Source: Crocinitomicaceae bacterium
GTDB lineage: Bacteria; Bacteroidota; Bacteroidia; Flavobacteriales_D; Crocinitomicaceae
NCBI GenBank assembly: GCA_030830895.1
Contig: JAURMC010000014.1
Coordinates: forward strand, 186,001-250,000
Direction of reading: 5' to 3'
Length of the DNA stretch: 64,000 bases
The notes under the pieces are model-generated. The model did no database searches and was not told the DNA's origin. It saw nothing but the letters and a program-made list of their open reading frames with translations. Below are positions 13,071 through 36,874 of the stretch, piece by piece; the first letter of the stretch is position 1, and each line of letters begins with the position of its first letter. A program made the position numbers and the translations under genes.

Positions 13071-14543
13071 TTATTCCGGATTTTCTTGCATCAATCGATT
13101 CAACCATCGAGCGACAAGGATGATTACAACTCCGGTAATTAACGCATAGATACTTAATTGTAAATATCCATTGGTATATCCATCTAAACGAACGCTCAGC
13201 GGAGCATTTTCATCCGGGTTAGACATACCTGCACCCAGAACTCCTGCAACATATTGTCCATAGGCGGAAGCCAAAAACCACATGCCCATCATGATTCCCC
13301 ACAAGTGTTTAGGCGACAATTTTGTCATAAGGGAGAGACCTATAGGTGACAAGAAAAGCTCTCCTATTGAAATCACAAGATATGCCAACGCGAAAAGTCC
13401 TAATGAAGCAAGACCATCACTGTTGAGCCAAAATCGCATTGCGTAAAAAATATAAAACGAAAGGCTTAAGAACAGAAAGGCCAAACCAAACTTTGCAAAG
13501 TAATTAGGCTCCAGTTTTCGTTTATTTAACCAAACCCACATCATTCCGATGAGCGCACTAAAACAGATCACAAAAAACGAATTCGCTGAATTATTAACCA
13601 CATTGGAATCAATATCAATTCCCATCATGTTACTGGCAACTAAATCTCGTGCAAAGAGGCTCAAAGAACCACCACTTTGCTCAAAAAACGACCAAAATAT
13701 GATGGACAACAAAATGAAAATAATCGCGGCCACCATTTTCTTAATTTGCATCTTATCCAATTTTGTCATCTCATAGAATATATAAACCAATGTAACCGGT
13801 CCAATGATGTACATGAACAGGTCGGTATATTCAGTTTTACGAATCATGATATAAATCAATGGCAAAACCGCGAGTGTACCGGCATAAACAAACCATCGAT
13901 TTCTACGGTCTTTTTTAGGAGATTCTGTGACGGGTGAAATTCCAATAGGTCCTAAGAGCTTTCTTGTTAAAATAAAATTCAATAACCCTAAGGCCATAAA
14001 AACACCAGATAATAAGAAGGCAATATTCCAGCTGTACGTTTTACCAACATAAACACAAAGTCCCCCTCCTAACAAGGCTCCGATGTTGATGCCGGCATAA
14101 AACAAACTAAATCCGGAATCCCTTCGTGGATCACCATCACGATACAACTCACCTACCATGGTTGAAATATTCGGCTTGAAGAATCCAGTTCCTACAATGA
14201 TAAAACAAATACCGTAAAAAAAGAATTGTTTTGCATCTAATCCCATCACAATACTACCCAACACCATTAATATCCCCCCCCATAACAAAGATCGCTGAAA
14301 ACCTAAGATTTTATCAGCAAACAATCCTCCAACAAAGGTAAATGCGTAGACAAATGCCTGTATAGCTCCATATTTCAGGTTAGCTACATCATCCTTAATT
14401 AATAGTATATCAGTCATGAAAATGACTAACATTCCTCGATTGCCATAAAAGCAAAAGCGCTCCCACATTTCGGTAAAAAACAAATACCAAATTTGTTTTG
14501 GGAATTTACCTTTAAAGTCTTGAATTTCTGATAGACTAAGCAT
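13071..14543 (-). CDS. POT/PTR family peptide MFS transporter
   Basis: 490 residues with about 12-14 membrane segments. The proton-coupled oligopeptide transporter signature ExxERFxYY is present as EMWERFCFYGNRG in TM1; GTGFFKPNISTMVGELY is the second family signature; FEQSGGSLSLFA lies at the end of TM7. It imports di-/tripeptides across the inner membrane with protons. It lies downstream of a second POT gene on the same strand but a terminator separates them, so it may be expressed separately. Confidence 0.92.
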   Translation of the reverse strand: MLSLSEIQDFKGKFPKQIWYLFFTEMWERFCFYGNRGMLVIFMTDILLIKDDVANLKYGAIQAFVYAFTFVGGLFADKILGFQRSLLWGGILMVLGSIVMGLDAKQFFFYGICFIIVGTGFFKPNISTMVGELYRDGDPRRDSGFSLFYAGINIGALLGGGLCVYVGKTYSWNIAFLLSGVFMALGLLNFILTRKLLGPIGISPVTESPKKDRRNRWFVYAGTLAVLPLIYIMIRKTEYTDLFMYIIGPVTLVYIFYEMTKLDKMQIKKMVAAIIFILLSIIFWSFFEQSGGSLSLFARDLVASNMMGIDIDSNVVNNSANSFFVICFSALIGMMWVWLNKRKLEPNYFAKFGLAFLFLSLSFYIFYAMRFWLNSDGLASLGLFALAYLVISIGELFLSPIGLSLMTKLSPKHLWGIMMGMWFLASAYGQYVAGVLGAGMSNPDENAPLSVRLDGYTNGYLQLSIYALITGVVIILVARWLNRLMQENPE

Positions 14544-27328: not shown

Positions 27329-27335
27329 ACTTGGG

Positions 27336-27409
27336 TGGTCCCACCTGGGCTCGAACCAGGGACCACCTGATTATGAGTCAGGTGCTCTAACCAACTGAGC
27401 TATAGGACC
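27336..27409 (-). tRNA. tRNA with CAT anticodon (elongator Met or lysidine-modified Ile2)
   Basis: A 74-nt cloverleaf. Acceptor 5' GGTCCTA pairs with 3' TGGGACC (one T-G wobble); the D arm has AGCTCAGTTGGTTAGAGC, the anticodon arm CCTGA-CTCATAA-TCAGG with CAT, and the T arm CCTGG-TTCGAGC-CCAGG. The discriminator base is A and CCA is not encoded. The lack of an initiator-type mismatch at position 1-72 excludes fMet. Elongator Met and Ile2 cannot be separated by eye. Confidence 0.93.
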
Positions 27410-27493: not shown

Positions 27494-27796
27494 TTAAATG
27501 AAAATAAATTTCTTTGTATCACATTGAAAAGCGACAAATTTTCCATGCTTCGCTACGCTGTAATCCAAACGGATTGCTTATTGAATTTTATTCCCCGGAT
27601 TTCCCTTCAGCCAATAATACCCAAAAAACACGGGTTTTTAAGCCGTGTAAATACACAAGTCACTTCCCGGGGGCATCGGATTGCTTTGTTTAAGTTGCTG
27701 GACATTCCATAAAACCCGATGATATCCTAATTTCGATAGCAACCGTTCAAGCATGTCTGCATGACCGTGGGTGTATCCGATGTTGTCGTAAAAACT
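27494..27796 (-). pseudogene. Metallophosphoesterase remnant with internal deletion
   Basis: Read on the minus strand. The 5' part gives FYDNIGYTHGHADMLERLL SKLGY, matching the N-terminus of Ser/Thr-phosphatase-like metallophosphoesterases (usual GDIHGHAD, here GYTHGHAD: the metal-binding Asp is Tyr). After a nonsense/frameshift the 3' part gives KPVFFGYYWLKGNP, then stop, then AIRLDYSVAKHGKFVAF, which matches the C-terminal region of the same family. The central ~200 codons with the other metal ligands are gone. Clearly dead. Confidence 0.7.
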
Positions 27797-27860
27797 GATT
27801 TTTTTTAGTGAAGATACATAACATCCTAACAATTATCTTATTTTCGTAAAAACTTATACC

Positions 27861-28073
27861 ATGGAAGAAAGAGACGTTGAAAAAACCTACACAAAAGAAG
27901 AGTTTGTAAGTAAATTAAGAAGACTAGCCGATTGCATTGAAAAAAATGAGAATTTTAGAATCTCCGTTGCAGGCGAGGCCATTTATGTTCCTGACGGCGC
28001 AACCTTTTCCATTGAGCACGAACGAAGCGAAGGCTCACACGAGCTCGAGTTTCAGGTTAAGTGGGGGGATTAA
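27861..28073 (+). CDS. amphi-Trp domain protein
   Basis: 70 residues, no signal peptide. The pattern FRISVAGEAIYVPDGATFSIEHERS...HELEFQVKW fits the small amphi-Trp domain (beta-rich, alternating hydrophobics ending in a Trp) found alone or in small proteins of unknown function. It lies 35 nt before the nine-gene membrane cassette on the same strand and may be its first gene. The function of the domain is not known to me. Confidence 0.8.
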   Translation: MEERDVEKTYTKEEFVSKLRRLADCIEKNENFRISVAGEAIYVPDGATFSIEHERSEGSHELEFQVKWGD

Positions 28074-28108: not shown

Positions 28109-29059
28109 ATGTCCGAAATATACATTTATTTAATTATTTTAATCGTTGCTGTTGTAATTCTCAACAGTAACCTCTCCTTTGGCGCTAAGCCAATTACAAA
28201 AAATCAAACCAATAACCTTTCGGTTATAGAACATTTAACCCAATTTGCTACTAAACAAAAAAACTACCGCCGTACTCCGCGTAATTTCGCATCTTTTGGA
28301 TACGCAGTTCACGGTAGAATTGTTGACGAAGATGTCTTTTTAGAATACAAATTCCCTCTGATTGGAAGTAAAGAATCTCAATTCACCATAAAGCTAAACG
28401 CTAAAACCACTTCTTCCACGGTTAGTAAATTTGGATGCAAAACAAGCTGTTTCGACCGAGAATCCGAGTCAACTTACAAATTACAATCAACCGACCACGA
28501 TTTTTTGTCTAAAAACATGAATAACGATGGGTTCTACTTTTTTGGTTTTGGTAAAAACGAATATGGAATTAATTATAACGAGGTAATTGGATTATCTGAC
28601 GAAATAAATTATTCGGTCGCTCGCTTTATCGAATCTGAATTACAAAAATTGGGGAAGGACACCTATGAAAACAGGGTTCGTGCTGCACTGCATTTTGTTC
28701 AATTTATTCCCTACGGTGTCCCTGATTTTGATGAGGGAGAAGATGCTTACTTCGGTTTGGCACTACCGCACGAAAGTTTAGCTATATCCTACAGTGATTG
28801 CGATAGTAAATCGACGATGTTTGCAGGAATTTTGCACCATTTGATATCTGAACAGAACATCGTTTTAGTGGACTGTATTATTGAAGGACAAGGGCATATG
28901 ATCACAGGAGTTGCGGGGGTTTATTTCCCTGGACAATATGTTACCCACCAAGGAAAAGACTTTTTGTTGATAGAAACAACCACACCAATAACTTTGGAAA
29001 ATCAACCAAGCAATAGATTTCAAGAAATTAATGTAGTTTCGATAAAACAACAAGAATAA
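28109..29059 (+). CDS. Membrane-anchored transglutaminase-like (cysteine-protease-fold) protein A
   Basis: 316 residues: one N-terminal membrane segment (about 5-23) acting as a signal anchor, then a periplasmic domain. The C-terminal half has a transglutaminase-like core: helix RAALHFVQFIPYGVPD (about 191-206), SYSDCDSKSTMF with the presumed nucleophile C231, EGQGHMITGV with H263, and LLIETTT with E289 in the place of the usual Asp. A Cys pair C110/C114 lies in the N-terminal beta region. It shares this plan with the protein at 34476. First gene of the nine-gene cassette, 1 nt before the next. Substrate unknown; peptide, isopeptide or peptidoglycan cross-link cleavage are all possible. Confidence 0.8.
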   Translation: MSEIYIYLIILIVAVVILNSNLSFGAKPITKNQTNNLSVIEHLTQFATKQKNYRRTPRNFASFGYAVHGRIVDEDVFLEYKFPLIGSKESQFTIKLNAKTTSSTVSKFGCKTSCFDRESESTYKLQSTDHDFLSKNMNNDGFYFFGFGKNEYGINYNEVIGLSDEINYSVARFIESELQKLGKDTYENRVRAALHFVQFIPYGVPDFDEGEDAYFGLALPHESLAISYSDCDSKSTMFAGILHHLISEQNIVLVDCIIEGQGHMITGVAGVYFPGQYVTHQGKDFLLIETTTPITLENQPSNRFQEINVVSIKQQE

Positions 29060-29060
29060 T

Positions 29061-29831
29061 ATGATTGAAAAAATTGCTGCATTAGGAGAACCATCGCTGT
29101 GGACCATTTTTTTGGTTTGCGCTTTGCTGATGGCTATTTTTCCATTTTGGAAACAGATAAAAAAGGCAATTCGAATTAAATTTTCAAATCAAAAAGCCGC
29201 GATTCATGATTTTTCTTGGCGCTTAGCACCAGACCATTATTTATTCACAGTTAAAGACAACGAATATTATCTACAGTCCAGTGGTAAACAATTTATCCTG
29301 GAGGGAGGCGCAATCATTCTTTCTTGGCATGTTACGGGGGCTTACCGTGTCGACATCCACCCCTTAGGGGACGATATCAAAGGAAACACAGCGGTAATCG
29401 CAGCAAAAAAAGAACGGAATCGTTTTATGTTAAGGGCCTACACGTTGGAAGGAAAATTAACCAAAGAGTTAGAGCTGAACCCCGCATTATTCCGGACCTT
29501 AGATACCTTTAATTTAAGCCAAGAACTTCATTTTAAACAGAAAAATAACAAACTAAGAACCAATGCGCTAAGCGAGAAGCGATGGATGCACGGCAAATAC
29601 AAACCCGGAAAAATGCAGCCTTTAGCTGCAATAAATACCCATAATATTCAACATAAGAATGCTCGATATTATTTCACAACATTATTAGATCGCTTGCGAT
29701 TTTTTAACCCTAACACAGACGCAAAATCTAATGTAATTACGTATATTAGCTTCAATAAAATTGTAAAAACTTTGCGATCAAACAACGCGAAATATAACCA
29801 AGCCCTAAATAGCCAACAAGAACCCCTTTAA
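29061..29831 (+). CDS. Single-pass membrane protein of unknown function
   Basis: 256 residues. One N-terminal membrane segment (about 13-31, WTIFLVCALLMAIFPFW) followed by a very basic region (KQIKKAIRIKF), so the C-terminal domain is probably cytoplasmic. Residues 45-150 look like a beta-sandwich (LSWHVTGAYRVDIHPLG..., NRFMLRAYTLEGKLTKEL); the rest is Lys/Asn-rich and likely flexible. No family recognised. Embedded in the cassette, 1 nt after the upstream stop and 12 nt before the DUF4407 gene. Confidence 0.75.
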   Translation: MIEKIAALGEPSLWTIFLVCALLMAIFPFWKQIKKAIRIKFSNQKAAIHDFSWRLAPDHYLFTVKDNEYYLQSSGKQFILEGGAIILSWHVTGAYRVDIHPLGDDIKGNTAVIAAKKERNRFMLRAYTLEGKLTKELELNPALFRTLDTFNLSQELHFKQKNNKLRTNALSEKRWMHGKYKPGKMQPLAAINTHNIQHKNARYYFTTLLDRLRFFNPNTDAKSNVITYISFNKIVKTLRSNNAKYNQALNSQQEPL

Positions 29832-29843
29832 AACAAGAACACT

Positions 29844-31238
29844 ATGAGTCAGAATAAAAATTCCATTGGGATGAATGAATTGGTAGATTACCAAAAGAAA
29901 AATTATGGGAAAACCATGGACCGCATTATGAAGTTTCTCTGGAAATGCGGAGGTGCTGATGCGCAAATCTTACAGTATGCTCCATATGCAGATCATATCA
30001 AGGCGGCAGGAATTGGAGGGGTAGTTCTTGCAACCACTGTCATGGCAATGATCGCTATGGGCTTTGCCATGCATACCATATTTGGAGAAAACACCAAAAA
30101 TGGGCATGAAGGTAATTGGCTTGTAACCATCCCTGCCGCTTTGGTTTGGGGATTAATCATCTTTAACCTCGACCGTTTCATTGTTTCCACGGTGAAAGGT
30201 GACGGTACCGAAAAAATCACTTGGGGTGAATGGGGAGCTATGTTACCCCGACTCTTTATGGCAGTCATTATTGGTCTTACCATTTCTGCACCGCTTGAGA
30301 CGCACATTTTTGAGAAAGAGATTAATAGGGAATGGGGTGAAGTTCAATATAAAAAATCACAGAATAGAGCTGACCAAGTTGAAGGTATTTACGATACACG
30401 AATCAACGAAATTAAAGCTAAACTGGCGAAAAATGATAGTATATATATGTCAAATAAAGTAATATTCGATTCTCTAAGCAATCAAATAAACGATTTACAA
30501 GCTGGTGTTGGCGTATATCGAGGTCAACCATGTGATTTAGGCCCTGGATGCCCAAAGCATGGAGAAATGTATGGCTCCAAAAAAAATGCTGAATTGATTA
30601 TGATTCAATCGAAAACCAGTAGAGAAAATTCTGAGAAAGAACTTGCAAAGCTACTTGAGGAAAAGGATAGCGAAAAAAAGGCACAAATGGATTCAATTAG
30701 AGCGCAATTACCTGGTTTTTTAGACCAATTAATGATGCTCGAAAATTTATCATCTCACGGTGAAACTTATAATCCTGTTGATCCTGCGACCAAGAAGCCA
30801 AAGATTGACCCAGAAACAAACCAACCTGTAATGGAAGAACTTTACGGTGCAGCTTGGGGCCCCATCTGGTTAGTCCGTTTATTGTTCATGATTGTTGAAA
30901 TTGCACCGGTCATATTTAAGTTTATGATATGGGATTCTTCTTATGACTATATGAAGGACAATGTTGCCCAAATTCTCGAAGCGAAACAAGGCATTTCTTT
31001 GGAGTCGTTTCCAGATGAGAACAACAATACGCATAGAATTCGTAAAAACTACAACGCAGAACGTATCGTAGAAGTCGCTAAGCGGCAAAATGAACTCGAG
31101 AAAGAGAATGCCATTCATGCGATTACCTTGTATGCAGAGCAAGAACGTAAAGACATCGAGGAAAATCCGGATGCTTTTGTTCAGAATCAGGATAACACCG
31201 TTGATTCCGACGATCTTGAATCCTCACCAAACGCGTAA
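29844..31238 (+). CDS. DUF4407 domain membrane protein
   Basis: 464 residues. The opening (MDRIMKFLWKCGGADAQILQYAPY) and IIFNLDRFIVSTV / ISAPLETHIFEKEI segments match DUF4407. Membrane segments lie at about 55-78, 92-112, 134-155 and 337-361. Between the third and fourth is a ~180-residue loop, predicted outside the inner membrane, with coiled-coil helices and a GQPCDLGPGCPKHGE Cys pair (C230, C236). The C-terminal ~100 residues are cytoplasmic, charged and helical. Function of DUF4407 is not established. Central gene of the cassette. Confidence 0.88.
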   Translation: MSQNKNSIGMNELVDYQKKNYGKTMDRIMKFLWKCGGADAQILQYAPYADHIKAAGIGGVVLATTVMAMIAMGFAMHTIFGENTKNGHEGNWLVTIPAALVWGLIIFNLDRFIVSTVKGDGTEKITWGEWGAMLPRLFMAVIIGLTISAPLETHIFEKEINREWGEVQYKKSQNRADQVEGIYDTRINEIKAKLAKNDSIYMSNKVIFDSLSNQINDLQAGVGVYRGQPCDLGPGCPKHGEMYGSKKNAELIMIQSKTSRENSEKELAKLLEEKDSEKKAQMDSIRAQLPGFLDQLMMLENLSSHGETYNPVDPATKKPKIDPETNQPVMEELYGAAWGPIWLVRLLFMIVEIAPVIFKFMIWDSSYDYMKDNVAQILEAKQGISLESFPDENNNTHRIRKNYNAERIVEVAKRQNELEKENAIHAITLYAEQERKDIEENPDAFVQNQDNTVDSDDLESSPNA

Positions 31239-31252
31239 GAAAATCCTGCTGA

Positions 31253-32368
31253 ATGGCCGGAGAGTTGGTTGTATACGGAACGTTTCGTGGTCGGTTTAAA
31301 ACAGACCAAGTTCTTCCATTAGGGAGCCAAGAAGCCTTTCCGAAAGATTTAACCAATAAAGTACAAGTGTACAGTGGTACCCTAGAAGACACTGTGTTTG
31401 AACATGAATATAAACCCGAGAAGCATCGGGTGCTCTCCTCATTTGTATTATCCAACGTTCCAAATATCGAAATCGTTGGAAATCAGAGCAAAAATGCGCA
31501 ATTTGCTGATACACGGGTCTATGACTTTACACAGTTAGTTATTATTAGACCAGTAATAGAACTCACCTTTCCTATGAACGGGGGCACCTATGGCGAAGTA
31601 AGTGGAATGGCCTATGGTAAAACCGCAGATCGTCCTCGGATTTCTAAACTAGATCCTCCCGACCCCCCAACAGTAACCGGAGCAAATAATAATGGAAATA
31701 ATACGGGGAGTGCTGCGGGTAATAATGGGTTCAATGACCAATCACAAATTGGTGATTTGGTAAATCGCACTCAGGAAGGCTGTAATACACTTTTTACTGG
31801 TTGTATTGCAAATTTTTGGCGCATTCTCGGGTATCTACTACTGCTACTTTTTCTTTGGTGGTTAATCAAGGCTTGCTCATCCATGGCTTCAGGCAACGAT
31901 TGCCGAGAAAGGGATCAGAATGAATTAATTCTTAAAGAAGAACAGAAACTTCGAGATTCATTGAGACATATTTATGAAGGTAATTTAGAACAAGCCTTGG
32001 CAAATATTAATAAAGTTTATTTTTACCGCAACAGCGACGAAATTCACAACTATTCACTTGGTGATAATGGAAGTTTGAAGCGATTGATTTATCTCTTGCA
32101 AGTGTATGAGGATAAGTCTTTCTATTTAATTGGAAACTATTCTGGAGCGGGAGTTGAAAACGCCTCATTGCATTTAGATTCAATGCGCGCCATCAAAATT
32201 CGCGATGTAATGATGATGAATGGAATCGCTGCAAATCGCTTGGAAATAATCAATAAAGCCGATAAAGAACCTATAGATCAAGCCATTATTTATCCCTATA
32301 TGTTGCCAGATTATTCATTGCAATATTACAACAGAAATATGCGGGTAGAAATAACAGTAAAAAAATAA
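31253..32368 (+). CDS. Single-pass protein: cytoplasmic N-domain, Asn/Gly linker, TM, OmpA-like C-domain
   Basis: 371 residues, no signal peptide. An N-terminal beta domain (about 5-125) is followed by a Pro/Asn/Gly linker (133-165), a GCNT motif (177-180), a membrane segment (189-207) and a Cys (208). After a helical stalk comes an OmpA/MotB-like domain (about 254-371): KVYFYRNSDEI, then SMRAIKIRDVMMMNGIAANRLEI and RNMRVEITVKK. Such domains usually bind peptidoglycan, but the canonical TD..GxxxxNxxLSxxRA residues are only partly kept. N-in topology leaves the first domain in the cytoplasm. Its N-domain and TM resemble the next gene, so the two are paralogs with different C-domains. Confidence 0.78.
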   Translation: MAGELVVYGTFRGRFKTDQVLPLGSQEAFPKDLTNKVQVYSGTLEDTVFEHEYKPEKHRVLSSFVLSNVPNIEIVGNQSKNAQFADTRVYDFTQLVIIRPVIELTFPMNGGTYGEVSGMAYGKTADRPRISKLDPPDPPTVTGANNNGNNTGSAAGNNGFNDQSQIGDLVNRTQEGCNTLFTGCIANFWRILGYLLLLLFLWWLIKACSSMASGNDCRERDQNELILKEEQKLRDSLRHIYEGNLEQALANINKVYFYRNSDEIHNYSLGDNGSLKRLIYLLQVYEDKSFYLIGNYSGAGVENASLHLDSMRAIKIRDVMMMNGIAANRLEIINKADKEPIDQAIIYPYMLPDYSLQYYNRNMRVEITVKK

Positions 32369-32369
32369 G

Positions 32370-33509
32370 ATGTCGAGCCTAGGTAAATACTTTGTTAAAG
32401 GTCATTTTGTAGGACAATTCACTACAAATCAAGATAAAGTATTATCTGCCGGCCATCCGTTACCGGAAGGGGACGAACATCAAGTGAACATCTATCGTGG
32501 AATTATAGATCAACCGAACCAAATTGAGGTTGAAGAATTTAACAATGCTCATGGATTCTACAACTTCTGGGAAGTTAATAACATTCAAATAAATAAGTCA
32601 TCCGCTTGGCCCATTGAGAATGATCGGATTTTTTCGATGAATCATTTGAAAATGAACAATGTTGAAATTAGTAACGTAACTACAAGCGACGGGAAAACGA
32701 GAGGAGAAATACGAGGAGATATTATTGCATCAGTCTCCGAGTTGCCATTTGAAAAGAGCGAGGGGAAACCATATAACCCGGGAAAATCAGCAAAACCGTT
32801 CAATGTTGACGACAATAATCAATCTAATGGTTCGGGTGATAATGTTGGTGGAAATTCAGGAAATCAGAACGGAGATGGTTCAGGAACCGGGGGACCAAAT
32901 AATCCCGGTGGTAATAATCCAGGCTGTCTCGATTTCGGGAACAAACTCCCGCAATTTCGAAGCGGCTGCAATACCAAATGGTCGCGATGGCTACTCTATT
33001 TACTCTTGATTTTATTATTGCTTTATCTTTTGGCTACGTGTACACAAATTGGAAAGAACATATATTGTAAAATTGATAATTGGAAAATAAAAAAAGAACT
33101 AAAATTCGTAAACGCGGAAATCGATACCCTTCGTACCCGGATCAACCAAACCTTACCCGTAGCAGAACCTTGTGGGAATAAAATTGATCATAATGGGACA
33201 AATGAATTTTGGGATCATCGATACAACATTGGTATACAGGATGGTACGGTATCAATATTTTTTGATGCGGTTCATATACCTGATAGGTTAGAAGTGATAT
33301 ACGATGGTAAATTGGTTGCTCAGACAAACGATAAATCAATAAATGGTTATCCAGAATTAAATGGCAAAGGCTTTCAACAAGATAGCATAACCTTATATTT
33401 TCCATATAAGTATGATAAAACTAAGCCCACCGAACTACTTCTTCGGGTAATTCCAAACAAAGATGATGATGGAACTGAATGGCACATTGACTTATCCTGC
33501 CCACGATGA
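32370..33509 (+). CDS. Paralogous single-pass protein with different C-terminal beta domain
   Basis: 379 residues. The N-domain (about 7-130) aligns with that of the preceding protein (VKGHFVGQFTTNQDKVLSAG vs its VYGTFRGRFKTDQVLPLG; later RGEIRGD vs YGEVSGM). Then a Asn/Gly/Ser-rich linker (149-187), the shared GCNT motif (199-202), a Leu-rich membrane segment (206-222) and a Cys (C224). The C-terminal part (about 266-379) is beta-rich, with a final Cys (LSCPR), and is not OmpA-like; family unknown. It starts 1 nt after the upstream stop and overlaps the next gene by 4 nt. Confidence 0.75.
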   Translation: MSSLGKYFVKGHFVGQFTTNQDKVLSAGHPLPEGDEHQVNIYRGIIDQPNQIEVEEFNNAHGFYNFWEVNNIQINKSSAWPIENDRIFSMNHLKMNNVEISNVTTSDGKTRGEIRGDIIASVSELPFEKSEGKPYNPGKSAKPFNVDDNNQSNGSGDNVGGNSGNQNGDGSGTGGPNNPGGNNPGCLDFGNKLPQFRSGCNTKWSRWLLYLLLILLLLYLLATCTQIGKNIYCKIDNWKIKKELKFVNAEIDTLRTRINQTLPVAEPCGNKIDHNGTNEFWDHRYNIGIQDGTVSIFFDAVHIPDRLEVIYDGKLVAQTNDKSINGYPELNGKGFQQDSITLYFPYKYDKTKPTELLLRVIPNKDDDGTEWHIDLSCPR

Positions 33510-34486
33510 ATTTAGGTAAATATATATTCGGAGTCAGGGAGGAGTACTTTGCGAAGGTAAGCACCAAGGAAAAGGAACGTCAATTTCTTGTGTTCAACAA
33601 CCTTACCCTCATGTATTTTATCCTTGTTGGATTCACAATTTTATCAGGATTTGTTTTCGGACTTATGATTTTCAATAACATCTTGCTAGCCATAGGAATT
33701 AGTCTTTTTTTAGGAGCCATTTGCTTTGTTTTATTATTGCTGGTCTTTTATCTGAACATGACCACCAATTATCAGGGCCTTTATTTAACCATGACCAATA
33801 TGGAGCCTTTGTTCGAAACTCATTACGATGAGGATTTAAAAGGGCTTTCCGATGAACGAGCACTAGAAATGGTAGCTAATGAAAAACAAAAATTACGTGA
33901 AACAAATCAACAGGCCACCTTCGATCATTTTCATTTATCGAGCGTAGTTACCTCAGCGGTTAAAGTTATTTTAATTCTAATCATTTCAGCCATGGTTGCG
34001 AATGCCATGGAGTTTGTTTTCTTTAGAAGTTCTTTGAATGAATCCCTACACAAAATCAAAAGTGACCCTACAATTATTGCTTGTGCTAACGCGAAAGAAT
34101 CTGAGCACAACGATGAATTGAATCGAAAAATAGGATTAGCTAATTGGACTTTGAAGATGTTAGAACCTAATCCAGGAGAGTCTTTCTTGTTTATTGATTC
34201 CCAGTCTTTTTTACTTTCATATCAAGTACTTGAAATGAGTTTAGGTCCTTGGAAGGTACTGTTAGATATTGCATTTGCTTTGTTGTTCTTGACCCCTTTC
34301 ATTCTCCTAAGGAAAAGTAATGAATATGCGGGTGGGATATTTCTAAAAGAGGCTGCGCTCATTGATATTGCACATTCTTACATGTTTTTTTTATTAGCCG
34401 AACGAGAGCGTCAGAAGATCAAGGAAGAAATAGCATTAAATTACGACTACTCAGAATTATTAAAGAAACCAACGGATGAAGCGTAA
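33506..34486 (+). CDS. Four-TM membrane protein with long extracytoplasmic loop
   Basis: 326 residues. Membrane segments at about 33-54, 57-82, 147-172 and 249-267. A charged coiled-coil-like stretch lies between TM2 and TM3 (cytoplasmic) and a ~75-residue loop between TM3 and TM4 (extracytoplasmic). The arrangement recalls the DUF4407 protein of the same operon in layout, though sequence similarity is not evident by eye. The C-terminus is a basic/acidic helix. Overlaps both neighbours by 4 and 11 nt, arguing for coupled translation. Confidence 0.75.
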   Translation: MNLGKYIFGVREEYFAKVSTKEKERQFLVFNNLTLMYFILVGFTILSGFVFGLMIFNNILLAIGISLFLGAICFVLLLLVFYLNMTTNYQGLYLTMTNMEPLFETHYDEDLKGLSDERALEMVANEKQKLRETNQQATFDHFHLSSVVTSAVKVILILIISAMVANAMEFVFFRSSLNESLHKIKSDPTIIACANAKESEHNDELNRKIGLANWTLKMLEPNPGESFLFIDSQSFLLSYQVLEMSLGPWKVLLDIAFALLFLTPFILLRKSNEYAGGIFLKEAALIDIAHSYMFFLLAERERQKIKEEIALNYDYSELLKKPTDEA

Positions 34487-35345
34487 TTTTTTTGATATAA
34501 GTAACCTTGTGTTTTGGATTTTATTAATCCTGATTGGCGTATTCATTCTTCCATTTTTAAAAGAACCACTATATGACGAGGATCGTGTAAAGGAATGGGT
34601 AACACTTTTTGATACAATTCAACCTATACCACAAAATGATACGCTGGTAGTTATTGACTCTAGCGGTACCACAATAGACACGCTACAATATGCATTTAAG
34701 GTTTGGGATTGGCACGATTTCGATGGGAATTGGCATAGTATAAAATTTAAATATCCGGTTGGTTCATTACAAGAAGCTACGATGAATAGGGCTTCAAGCT
34801 TTTCATATGACCCACTGTACGAGCATGATAAACCAATCCTGAATGATCTCATTGTACAAATGAAAAAGCACATCGACACGAAAAATTTATCATACATGGA
34901 TGCTTTAGAATATGTGTGTTCTTCAGTTCAAGACATTCCTTATACTCTCGTACTCGATGACCCTAACGGTTGCCCTTGTGAACAGCCGTTTGGTTCATTT
35001 TCAGGAAATTGTCGGGTTCAATCAAACGGGGATGGCTGTTGTGAGGGTGTTGGACCATTTGGTGTATATTCACCTTTTGAATTTGTTTATTATGAAACAG
35101 GTGATTGCGATACGCGAGCACTACTAACTTTCACTATTCTAAAGGAAATAGGGTTCGATGTGGCTGTAATGGTTAGCCGTTCTGAAGGTCATTCTGTACT
35201 TGGAATTGCAAACATTGGTAAATTTGGAGATTCATATGGTAAAAATGCCTATGGAAAAAAATATTATTTATGGGAATTAACCTCTAAGTCTTGGAGATTT
35301 GGTCAAGGAGTTAGCGGTAATGACTGGAAGGCAGCGTTAGAATAG
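34476..35345 (+). CDS. Membrane-anchored transglutaminase-like (cysteine-protease-fold) protein B
   Basis: 289 residues. N-terminal signal anchor (about 9-26). The core repeats the plan of protein A at 28109: helix ALEYVCSSVQDIPYTL (143-158), YYETGDCDTRALLTF with C211, SEGHSVLGI with H239, and YLWELTS with E267 replacing the usual Asp. Between the helix and the nucleophile is a Cys-rich insert, with C166, C168, C179, C188 and C189, that may bind metal or form disulfides. Predicted periplasmic. It overlaps the upstream gene by 11 nt and is followed by two small membrane proteins. Confidence 0.8.
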   Translation: MKRNFFDISNLVFWILLILIGVFILPFLKEPLYDEDRVKEWVTLFDTIQPIPQNDTLVVIDSSGTTIDTLQYAFKVWDWHDFDGNWHSIKFKYPVGSLQEATMNRASSFSYDPLYEHDKPILNDLIVQMKKHIDTKNLSYMDALEYVCSSVQDIPYTLVLDDPNGCPCEQPFGSFSGNCRVQSNGDGCCEGVGPFGVYSPFEFVYYETGDCDTRALLTFTILKEIGFDVAVMVSRSEGHSVLGIANIGKFGDSYGKNAYGKKYYLWELTSKSWRFGQGVSGNDWKAALE

Positions 35346-35366
35346 TAATTTTTAAAAATTAAGTTT

Positions 35367-35840
35367 ATGAAAGAGTTTTTGAATATTTTATTGTTATTGA
35401 TTTTGGGCATTATCTATGTTGTCTCGTTTACAAAGGTTATTTCTTCCTTTCTGAATAAAATTGTACAGCAAAGAAACAATGCAATCATTGCCTTGTACCT
35501 TGCCGCTATTGGTTCTGCGGGGGTTATTTTAATTGATATTTCCAAAATAATTACGGATGCGTTTATCTTTTTCTATGAGGCCGGAAATATTGGAAAGTCC
35601 ATTGGTTATACCGCATTATTCTTCATCGGAGCATGGGTATATTCCCTGGCTCAGTTTCATTTAAGTTTCTTTTTGGTTTCCCTCTTGTCAAAAGAAAATG
35701 AAAAAATCCAATTGAATAATAACAATTTAGAAATTGCTTTAGTGCATGGGATAGTTCTTATTATTTTATCCTTCTTAGTAGGACCTGCGTTAAGTACTTT
35801 CGCATCAAGCTTTATCCCATATCCAGAACTCCCATTTTAA
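35367..35840 (+). CDS. Small four-TM membrane protein
   Basis: 157 residues, about four membrane segments (approx. 5-25, 40-60, 78-105, 124-147), Ile/Leu/Phe-rich, no catalytic motif seen. The gene directly abuts the next one (0 nt), and the two products are similar in size and topology, so they may be a heteromeric pair. Some resemblance to DUF350-type small membrane proteins by size only; I would not assign it. Confidence 0.65.
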   Translation: MKEFLNILLLLILGIIYVVSFTKVISSFLNKIVQQRNNAIIALYLAAIGSAGVILIDISKIITDAFIFFYEAGNIGKSIGYTALFFIGAWVYSLAQFHLSFFLVSLLSKENEKIQLNNNNLEIALVHGIVLIILSFLVGPALSTFASSFIPYPELPF

Positions 35841-36299
35841 ATGAACATGCATTTACTAATTATCATTGCGACGCTAATAATTACTCTAGTATTCATGTTT
35901 TTGACATATTTAATATTTAGAAACTATTTTTATTCCATTATTTTCCCACTCAACGCTGCTGCGCGTATATTTTTTATTTCAGCCCTTTTTGGATCGGGAA
36001 TGAGCCTCTATTTATTCAGTGAATTTGGAATTAGTTTATTAAATCATTACTACGAAACTAACCATTTAGGTTTAGGGATAGGAGTGTTTTTAGTAGGTGT
36101 TTTTATTTGCTTTTGTTTTAATATAGTTATTTTCAGAACTACGATATTGATAAACAAAATCTCCTTATTTGAAAATGAACACGCGGAACTAGCTAAAGGC
36201 AATCTACTAATCGCAGGGATTCAATCCATTACATTTCTGATTTTTATTTTCCTATTATCAGGACCTTTGATAAAACTTATATTAAGGGTTATTCAATAA
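35841..36299 (+). CDS. Small four-TM membrane protein
   Basis: 152 residues, about four membrane segments (approx. 4-25, 40-61, 79-102, 126-148) with a short charged ISLFENEHAELAKGN cytoplasmic or periplasmic loop before the last. Size and layout parallel the preceding gene, which it follows without spacer. Last gene of the cassette; no terminator was seen after it, only pseudogene debris. Family not recognised. Confidence 0.65.
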   Translation: MNMHLLIIIATLIITLVFMFLTYLIFRNYFYSIIFPLNAAARIFFISALFGSGMSLYLFSEFGISLLNHYYETNHLGLGIGVFLVGVFICFCFNIVIFRTTILINKISLFENEHAELAKGNLLIAGIQSITFLIFIFLLSGPLIKLILRVIQ

Positions 36300-36504
36300 G
36301 ATAGATTATAATAGTCTAACGAAATTAATCGCCCCATGCCCCCTTGCTATACATACACGGATTAGGCTCTTATCGGAACTCCACTAAATTCCTGGTCTTT
36401 CAGGCTTTCTTCCCTGATATGTTTGATTTTCATTGCCTGGGATGGACAGAACTTTCAAATATTTAACGCTTGATATCACAAACGTACACCACATTTGAAA
36501 AAAC

Positions 36505-36864
36505 CAATCATCTCATCTTTTTTGGTGATTCAACTGGGGCTAATTTCGCTTATCAACTGAGAGATAATTGAGCATTGAATGGACTACAAACGAAATTAAT
36601 TTTATCTGCTCCCTTACTGGATCTTTCAAAAAGAATCATTGACTTCAATTTTCCCAAATGCTTAATCCCCCAATTAATTAAGATTGAACAGCCTACACAT
36701 GCCCTATTAATTTGCCAATGCACGATGAACTAATTAATCACACAGCGTTGAAATCAGACGTCACGAATAAACTACAAGTACTTCAAGTCAATGATACCCA
36801 TCGCCTCCCTAGATTTAAAGAATACCTACCCGCCGTTAAGGCCTATATCGAAGAAGATGAGTAA
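36505..36864 (+). pseudogene. Alpha/beta hydrolase remnant
   Basis: A disrupted frame downstream of the cassette. HLIFFGDSTGANFAYQLRDN shows a GDSTGA nucleophile elbow of serine esterases, followed by a stop, then LQTKLILSAPLLDLS and further stops. After a frameshift near 36720 the other frame reads PMHDELINHTALKSDV, QVLQVNDTHRLPRF and KEYLPAVKAYIEEDE, ending at 36862-36864; the DTH segment may hold the catalytic His. Together these make a decayed C-terminal half of an esterase/lipase-like gene. Bases 36300-36504 hold nothing readable apart from a possible upstream continuation. Confidence 0.6.
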
Positions 36865-36874
36865 GTATAATCGT

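Follow-up and report, generated by a model that had tools for sequence, protein, structure and literature searches.

A 64,000-nucleotide stretch of a draft genome of a Crocinitomicaceae bacterium (GCA_030830895.1, contig JAURMC010000014.1, positions 186,001 to 250,000; hereafter the window) contains, at 28109..36299 on the plus strand, an array of nine open reading frames (ORFs) that all encode membrane proteins. The contig is 387 kb long and the draft genome is 64% complete. A preliminary description, made from the sequence alone, had singled out this array, and its coordinates and intergenic gaps (1, 12, 14, 1, -4, -11, 21 and 0 nt) match to the base. As it had claimed, each of the nine products carries at least one transmembrane (TM) segment in a hydropathy scan, with four in each of 29844 and 33506 (genes are named here by their first position) and three and four in the two small proteins. 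Its statement that the array has no internal terminator is fair: two terminator-like matches fall within genes on the plus strand (28145 and 33990), the cassette region holds six in total against 7.7 expected from shuffles, and two more lie directly past its end (36391-36417). The inventory of nine genes stands as listed but overlooked an amphi-Trp gene 35 nt upstream of the first of them. The features are as follows.

27334..27409, minus strand: tRNA-Met (ARAGORN and Rfam), left edge of the variable site
27861..28073, plus strand: amphi-Trp protein of 70 amino acids (aa), probable tenth member (TIGR04354 E 4.5e-12; PF20068 E 5.1e-7)
28109..29059, plus strand: TG1, a signal-anchored transglutaminase-like protein (profile match to Transglut_core; Gln-Cys-His-Glu kept in 9 of 9)
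29061..29831, plus strand: one TM segment followed by an Ig-like domain predicted to be cytosolic (motif LSWxVxGAxxxxIxP)
29844..31238, plus strand: DUF4407 protein, four TM segments, TM3 and TM4 being separated by a long helical hairpin (PF14362 E 9e-52; AF2 model)
31253..32368, plus strand: adaptor with N-domain, TM segment and an OmpA-like domain lacking the canonical Asp (profiles, solved OmpA structures)
32370..33509, plus strand: adaptor with N-domain, disordered linker, TM segment, helix and PPC/GOLD-like beta-sandwich (predicted structure)
33506..34486, plus strand: DUF4407b, a divergent DUF4407 paralogue, four TM segments (hhalign Prob 99.2, E 8.2e-20, 249 columns)
34476..35345, plus strand: TG2, a signal-anchored transglutaminase-like protein (Gln-Cys-His-Glu kept in 37 of 37; hhalign to Transglut_core)
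35367..35840, plus strand: small four-TM protein, found after TG2 even where loci are reduced (all nine complete class I loci match the fixed profile)
35841..36299, plus strand: second, paralogous small four-TM protein (phmmer to 35367 E 2e-5)

The array is thus made of four duplicated families (DUF4407, transglutaminase-like proteins, N-domain/TM adaptors, small four-TM proteins) and a single TM/Ig-like protein. This cassette is a real conserved unit and its anatomy is well supported. Its relatives were defined by fixed profiles together with profile-profile tests; iterated searches drifted, from the Ig-like protein to kinases and from 33506 to DUF4407 at large. In the arrangement that we call class I, eight proteins stand in the same order (TG1, Ig-like, DUF4407, N-OmpA adaptor, N-PPC adaptor, DUF4407b, TG2, small four-TM) at nine complete loci, namely the window, L033 (genome G571), L035 (G440), L123, L130, L131, L134, L135 and L170 (G595). 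The view that the array is one conserved unit is borne out by these loci, with a qualification on whether all nine genes stay together: the ninth, the second small four-TM copy, occurs only in the window and in L033 among them, and reduced or rearranged classes also exist. L037 is a class I locus without the OmpA adaptor, and in L034/L164 (G523) the contig ends within the third gene.

In class II, the order is DUF4407, DUF4407b, N-OmpA adaptor, a single protein fusing N-domain, TM segment and TG2, and the small four-TM protein. There are 16 complete loci of this type (L038-L040, L111, L112, L114, L118-L122, L124 and L126-L129, the fusion's N-domain being undetected in L121 and L124); DUF4407b was not called in L125, and contig ends cut L036, L113, L117, L139 and L140. 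G571 and G440 carry class I and class II together. Class III lacks the OmpA adaptor (L041, L044, L132, L212, and L045 with an extra N-domain protein); here the profiles miss the N-domain in L132 and the small four-TM protein in L212, where a 162-aa protein with four TM segments is found at the expected position. Since N-domain, TM segment and TG2 are fused in classes II and III, adaptor and enzyme belong together. A DnaJ domain (E 6.8e-23) opens the L212 fusion, an argument for placing the N side in the cytosol. At six loci (L133, L136-L138, L213, L214) TG2 and the small four-TM protein occur without DUF4407 in the stretch fetched, and the two from outside the class (L213, L214) have the pair in reversed order. 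Conversely, L042 and L229 have the DUF4407 pair with an N-domain/TM protein and no TG2, the L042 protein showing sub-threshold TPR matches in its C-terminal part, and L047 has the DUF4407 pair and no other component. The fused protein has at least 282 database clusters at E <= 1e-8; among the matches listed are Zobellia galactanivorans and Flavobacterium reichenbachii, which thus have at least this protein of the system. As a side observation, a 4HBT thioesterase gene directly follows the class I or II cassette on the same strand at four loci (L033:16490-17032, E 1.4e-15; L038:15190-15738; L114; L119) and lies nearby in five more.

The cassette is accessory and sits at a variable, tRNA-linked site. 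TG1 was found in 9 of 86 genomes of the genus, TG2 in 32 of 299 genomes of the order and 6 of 395 of the phylum, and the cassette-type DUF4407 (E <= 1e-100) in 13 of 395 genomes of the class and 2 of 87 of the family of G115. Further out from the window cassette lie PrsW-like and YdjM-like genes and tRNA-Met, and this tRNA is also near the site in L134, L135, L164 and the cassette-free L181 and L183. These last two (G585 and G600) lack the cassette, PrsW and amphi-Trp but keep flanking genes of both window sides, and within a few kb they have YdjM and, in reverse orientation, tRNA-Met. L134 and L135 share the order of the window (tRNA-Met, phosphoesterase, amphi-Trp, cassette, YdjM). Against L135, the window is 97% identical in amphi-Trp, 90% in YdjM and 85% in the 37962 protein, and only 32-56% identical in the eight cassette proteins; against L134 the corresponding values are 89%, 71% and 88%, and 31-56%. 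Between L134 and L135 themselves, cassette proteins are 81-96% and flanks 71-95% identical. The DNA match between the window and L135 resumes at 88.9% from 36341, 42 nt past the last stop codon. TG1 of the window and TG1 of G523 are 83% identical, although by one ABC protein G523 is more distant from the window than G446 is (77% versus 94% over 127 aa). These pairwise identities, which are not a tree, point to replacement of an allele at the site.

Several traces of decay and duplication surround the cassette. The window retains at 27638-27832 on the minus strand a remnant of a calcineurin-like phosphoesterase gene, whose intact relatives (about 300 aa) adjoin amphi-Trp in L033, L134 and L135. 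Window positions 36341-36870 are about 89% identical to L135 DNA that holds a 177-aa ORF just after the cassette; they probably represent a decayed gene, since no ORF of at least 60 aa is present at this place in the window. In L134 (14201-14335) and L135 (5341-5475), the first 45 YdjM codons occur a second time next to the 37962-type gene, in addition to the full copy adjoining the cassette, and this partial duplicate is a trace of past recombination at the site. In L042, L134 and L135, related genes of ion-channel type (PF00520 E 1.6e-13 in L134) are found a short way downstream of the cassette or of the DUF4407 pair.

The amphi-Trp gene is probably a co-inherited tenth member. It occurs in 13 of the 86 genus genomes: every one of the nine that have TG1, and four of the 77 that do not (Fisher p 1.6e-9, with no correction for relatedness). 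It stands directly upstream of the cassette in the window, L034, L131, L134 and L135, and on a contig other than that of the cassette in G440 and G595. G430, G559 and G495 have it without the cassette; in a fourth genome, G615, the contig is too short to tell.

At the centre of the unit are two DUF4407 proteins. The DUF4407 core recognised earlier is confirmed for 29844 (PF14362, 176.6 bits for a curated cut-off of 31.3) and is present twice: 33506, previously listed as another four-TM protein, does have four TM segments and is the second copy. It falls below curated membership, with no Pfam DUF4407 match, and from profile-profile comparison alone it is a divergent DUF4407 paralogue. The AF2 model of 29844 (mean pLDDT 77) has helices at 157-219 and 237-286 and predicts that some 130 residues between TM3 and TM4 form a helical hairpin, which would lie on the periplasmic side. 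Compared with solved structures by sequence profile, DUF4407 gave coiled-coil noise only and no match to MotA or ZorA, and the fold search with its model returned helical rows only, topped by PCAT1, an exporter that contains a peptidase (E 0.018, TM-score 0.18, rmsd 34.6). That entry, and the presence of several membrane proteins with peptidase-like domains, could suggest a machine for protein export or maturation in which the TG enzymes process an exported substrate. We consider this very improbable: the PCAT1 likeness is one of generic long helices and was rejected, and Pfam and NCBIfam scans find no ATPase in the cassette.

Of 295 genomes sampled across the class, 43 have DUF4407, which is often solitary. 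In L046, L051 and L069 the gene preceding it matches a protein kinase (exceeding the Pfam cut-off in L046 and L069 but not in L051), itself preceded by vWA and PP2C genes that were recognised by eye, with no scan. Two highly similar proteins of 53 and 59 aa starting MGWRFRKS (L046:13618-13779, L069:11431-11610) follow DUF4407 in such loci. The window protein encoded just before DUF4407, 29061, has six Lys or Arg and no Asp or Glu in the 15 residues after its TM segment. A loose form of its Ig-like motif is found upstream of DUF4407 in all five class I loci tested and in L043, L046, L051, L052, L054, L069 and L073, and is absent from most genes upstream of solo DUF4407; a fixed Ig-like profile supports L043 (4e-4), L046 (1e-4) and L229 (7e-8). 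Ig-like-repeat proteins precede DUF4407 in L043, L073, L054 and L061, with weak matches of PLD-like type in L043 and L073 and of zinc-ribbon type in L061, as further apparent pairings.

The two transglutaminase-like proteins hold up by profile comparison, and their Cys, His and Glu are invariant. Gln, Cys, His and Glu are present in all nine TG1 sequences and in all 37 TG2 family domains, and both proteins have the catalytic order Cys-His-Asp/Glu of the transglutaminase-like superfamily. By hhalign to the cropped core of Transglut_core, TG2 reaches Prob 91.8 and E 7.3e-7 with Cys and His aligned; cropping, for which 19 of 22 loci were used (L186, L204 and L207 dropped), strengthened the match from E 0.0017 in the uncropped alignment, where TG1 gave E 0.032. 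TG1 matches Transglut_core weakly (E 4.2e-4, controls 0.42 or worse) and is related to TG2 (Prob 97.4). Like members of PF01841, the two enzymes have aligned Cys and His and an invariant Gln and acidic residue; unlike them, their Pfam scores lie below cut-off. Pfam and NCBIfam give no transglutaminase match for either window protein, and Transglut_core stays below cut-off in every family member scanned, the best values being 0.00039 (L213) and 0.049 (one of ten members of A1). Against solved structures by sequence, TG2 gave nothing meaningful and TG1 nothing. TG1 and TG2 are probably cysteine peptidases. The small four-TM protein 35367 has matches to DUF350 and DUF4271 at E about 0.005, below cut-off.

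The adaptors 31253 and 32370 are indeed paralogous single-pass proteins, which have the N-domain in common and differ in their C-terminal modules. On its own, the OmpA-like domain in 31253 scores below the Pfam cut-off (E 0.0024), but as a family the OmpA adaptors resemble solved OmpA-type structures (best E 2.9e-18). In known OmpA structures an Asp and an Arg of this domain form the diaminopimelate site. In the window the Arg is kept and the Asp is replaced by Ser, so that peptidoglycan binding by this domain, as first proposed, is unsupported. In a count using 46 of 54 proteins, both residues are present in 20 of 20 class II relatives, while the Asp is kept in three of eight class I loci and in one of 34 shorter database relatives. 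The C-terminus of 32370, downstream of a predicted disordered segment (residues 136-199), is predicted as a PPC/GOLD-like beta-sandwich and as neither a peptidoglycan nor a protease module. Foldseek with the 32370 model gave no match at E 0.001 or better, and its N-domain was barely probed because the C-terminal sandwich filled the match list; neither this search nor that with DUF4407 demonstrates a new fold. In the class II cassette of L039, two adjoining ORFs (13235-14068 and 14055-14495) have near-identical N-terminal starts, and the first carries an OmpA domain (E 2.4e-20) but lacks a TM segment, a sign of domain duplication.

The class II residues, the membrane nature of all nine products and the predicted periplasmic location of the TG enzymes would suit an accessory envelope-remodelling machine. 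In it, the OmpA-like adaptor would anchor the DUF4407 pair to peptidoglycan, and in certain conditions the TG enzymes would cut or cross-link envelope proteins or the peptides of peptidoglycan. We find this rather unlikely, as the Asp is lost in five of eight class I loci including the window, and as patchy presence and replacement-like variation at one site are unusual for housekeeping. Moreover, a DUF4407 pair also occurs in L042 beside TIR and caspase genes: the Ig-like gene there comes 10 nt after the end of the TIR gene (PF13676 E 2.2e-14), and the caspase gene (PF00656 E 7.7e-19) is upstream as well.

The cassette matches no named system, as had been suspected. Pfam, NCBIfam and PADLOC scans of its ten proteins gave only DUF4407, amphi-Trp and the sub-threshold OmpA, and weak matches to SpoVS, HemY_N, Curto_V3, Cas2b and the like were judged chance. 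By design, and not by membership, the nearest analogy is the anti-phage system Zorya (ZorA/ZorB), which has accessory genes, a multi-TM platform and a single-pass partner whose OmpA-like domain binds peptidoglycan (PMC11890865). The cassette has a multi-TM platform, a single-pass OmpA-like protein and accessory genes as well. It differs in that the DUF4407 hairpin is predicted outside and is not a cytoplasmic tail, and in having TG enzymes in place of nuclease effectors; no Zorya model in PADLOC matched the ten proteins at E <= 1. As for the MotA-like 5:2 ion-driven motor of Zorya, the DUF4407 profile found no MotA or ZorA and the fold search gave helical rows only. TerY-P triads have been described, and TerY-P-like modules reported as anti-phage systems (PMC11090510). 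The vWA, PP2C and kinase triads of L046, L051 and L069 share with the cassette DUF4407 and an Ig-like domain in the preceding gene, whereas the cassette has no kinase, phosphatase or vWA protein among its ten and does have a second DUF4407 and the TG enzymes. As described in PMC7159879, iSTAND/vWA-MoxR ternary conflict systems have TM and OmpA effector domains and their VMAPs, rarely, transglutaminase-like peptidases; the cassette has no STAND, MoxR or vWA protein. DUF4407 appears as a table entry in PMC10719396 and PMC9603813. The open-access literature searched, which leaves most subscription papers outside its scope, contains no mention of amphi-Trp, and among the matches listed for transglutaminases in conflict or defence there is no system of the present kind.

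TerY-P-like kinases beside single DUF4407 genes suggest that DUF4407 may signal, and the cassette combines peptidase-like enzymes with cytosolic N-domains and an Ig-like domain. It could serve regulated proteolysis without any conflict role, a periplasmic or cytosolic cue activating TG1 or TG2 so that a membrane protein is cut and expression or motility changes. This appears quite improbable to us, for Pfam and NCBIfam scans find neither a transcription factor nor a kinase in the cassette, and the list of recurrent neighbours contains no recurrent regulator.

To explain these results we propose, with a confidence just short of even, that the cassette is an apparently undescribed trans-envelope sensor and protease system with an accessory role in conflict or defence. 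In favour of this are the fixed order at nine complete loci, the fusion of adaptor and enzyme, the TG2/small four-TM pairs, the DnaJ domain of L212, the patchy occurrence and the divergence at a variable site. The genomic context is also in favour, with TIR and caspase genes in L042, kinases beside single DUF4407 genes in L046, L051 and L069, and GmrSD genes at the same site in relatives. To the right of the site, L134 carries a GmrSD gene that has close relatives in L135 and L182; in L182 (G430) PCMT-type genes adjoin YdjM, one of them matching PADLOC mad2. We infer its topology, its assembly into one complex, its trigger, its substrate and its outcome as follows. The DUF4407 pair would be the membrane platform of a single trans-envelope complex, with the N-domains and the Ig-like domain facing the cytosol. 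The adaptors, their N-domains held on a flexible cytosolic linker, would carry the OmpA-like and PPC-like modules into the periplasm, where the two membrane-anchored TG enzymes would act with their small four-TM partner. A disturbance such as phage entry may alter the DUF4407/adaptor assembly and release TG2, which may then act on the small four-TM protein, as pore or substrate, or on another envelope protein, leading to growth arrest or cell death. Because TG2 and the small four-TM protein also occur as a pair alone, they may be the output, a peptidase with its membrane substrate or pore. The single complex that the preliminary description envisaged is thus a plausible arrangement of a conserved unit, and rests on predicted topology.

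Several points weigh against this sensor and protease reading. The TIR and caspase context is that of one locus only, because L229 ends at that point. The window cassette contains no familiar immune effector and its ten proteins have no PADLOC match beyond a chance-level Cas2b (E 0.009). No confirmed DUF4407 relative was found on viral contigs or in plasmid records, and no TG2 relative in phage records. Crude TM counts in the fused proteins vary from 1 to 7, so that the side on which TG2 lies is not settled; these counts also rule out that the number is always odd. Variable envelope systems would be expected to look similar. We also did not count an enrichment in defence islands: among neighbouring proteins, 144 taken from 25 cassette loci gave matches to 124 PADLOC models and 145 taken from 21 solo-DUF4407 loci gave matches to 16 (leaving out ORFs below 110 or above 700 aa, small upstream partners and all but the nearest six or seven per locus), but single proteins inflate this tally, one methyltransferase giving 50 models and one GmrSD 28, and the solo-DUF4407 control set has defence-type matches as well (CARF, reverse transcriptase).

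More broadly, and doubtfully, we envision that DUF4407 pairs could be the general inner-membrane platform of a new class of immune complexes, sensing through cytosolic N- and Ig-like domains and periplasmic modules and fitted with swappable outputs, a periplasmic TG peptidase acting on a small four-TM effector here and TIR/caspase in L042. Single DUF4407 proteins would serve TerY-P-like kinases, and the window allele would have been acquired by replacement at a tRNA-linked variable site.

Within the open-access literature searched, the cassette apparently represents an undescribed modular system family of Bacteroidota, and the occurrence of the fused protein in named strains makes it testable. 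If our proposal is true, it would be an immune or stress complex that spans the envelope and is based on cysteine peptidases in the periplasm, and the domain of unknown function DUF4407 would gain a role.

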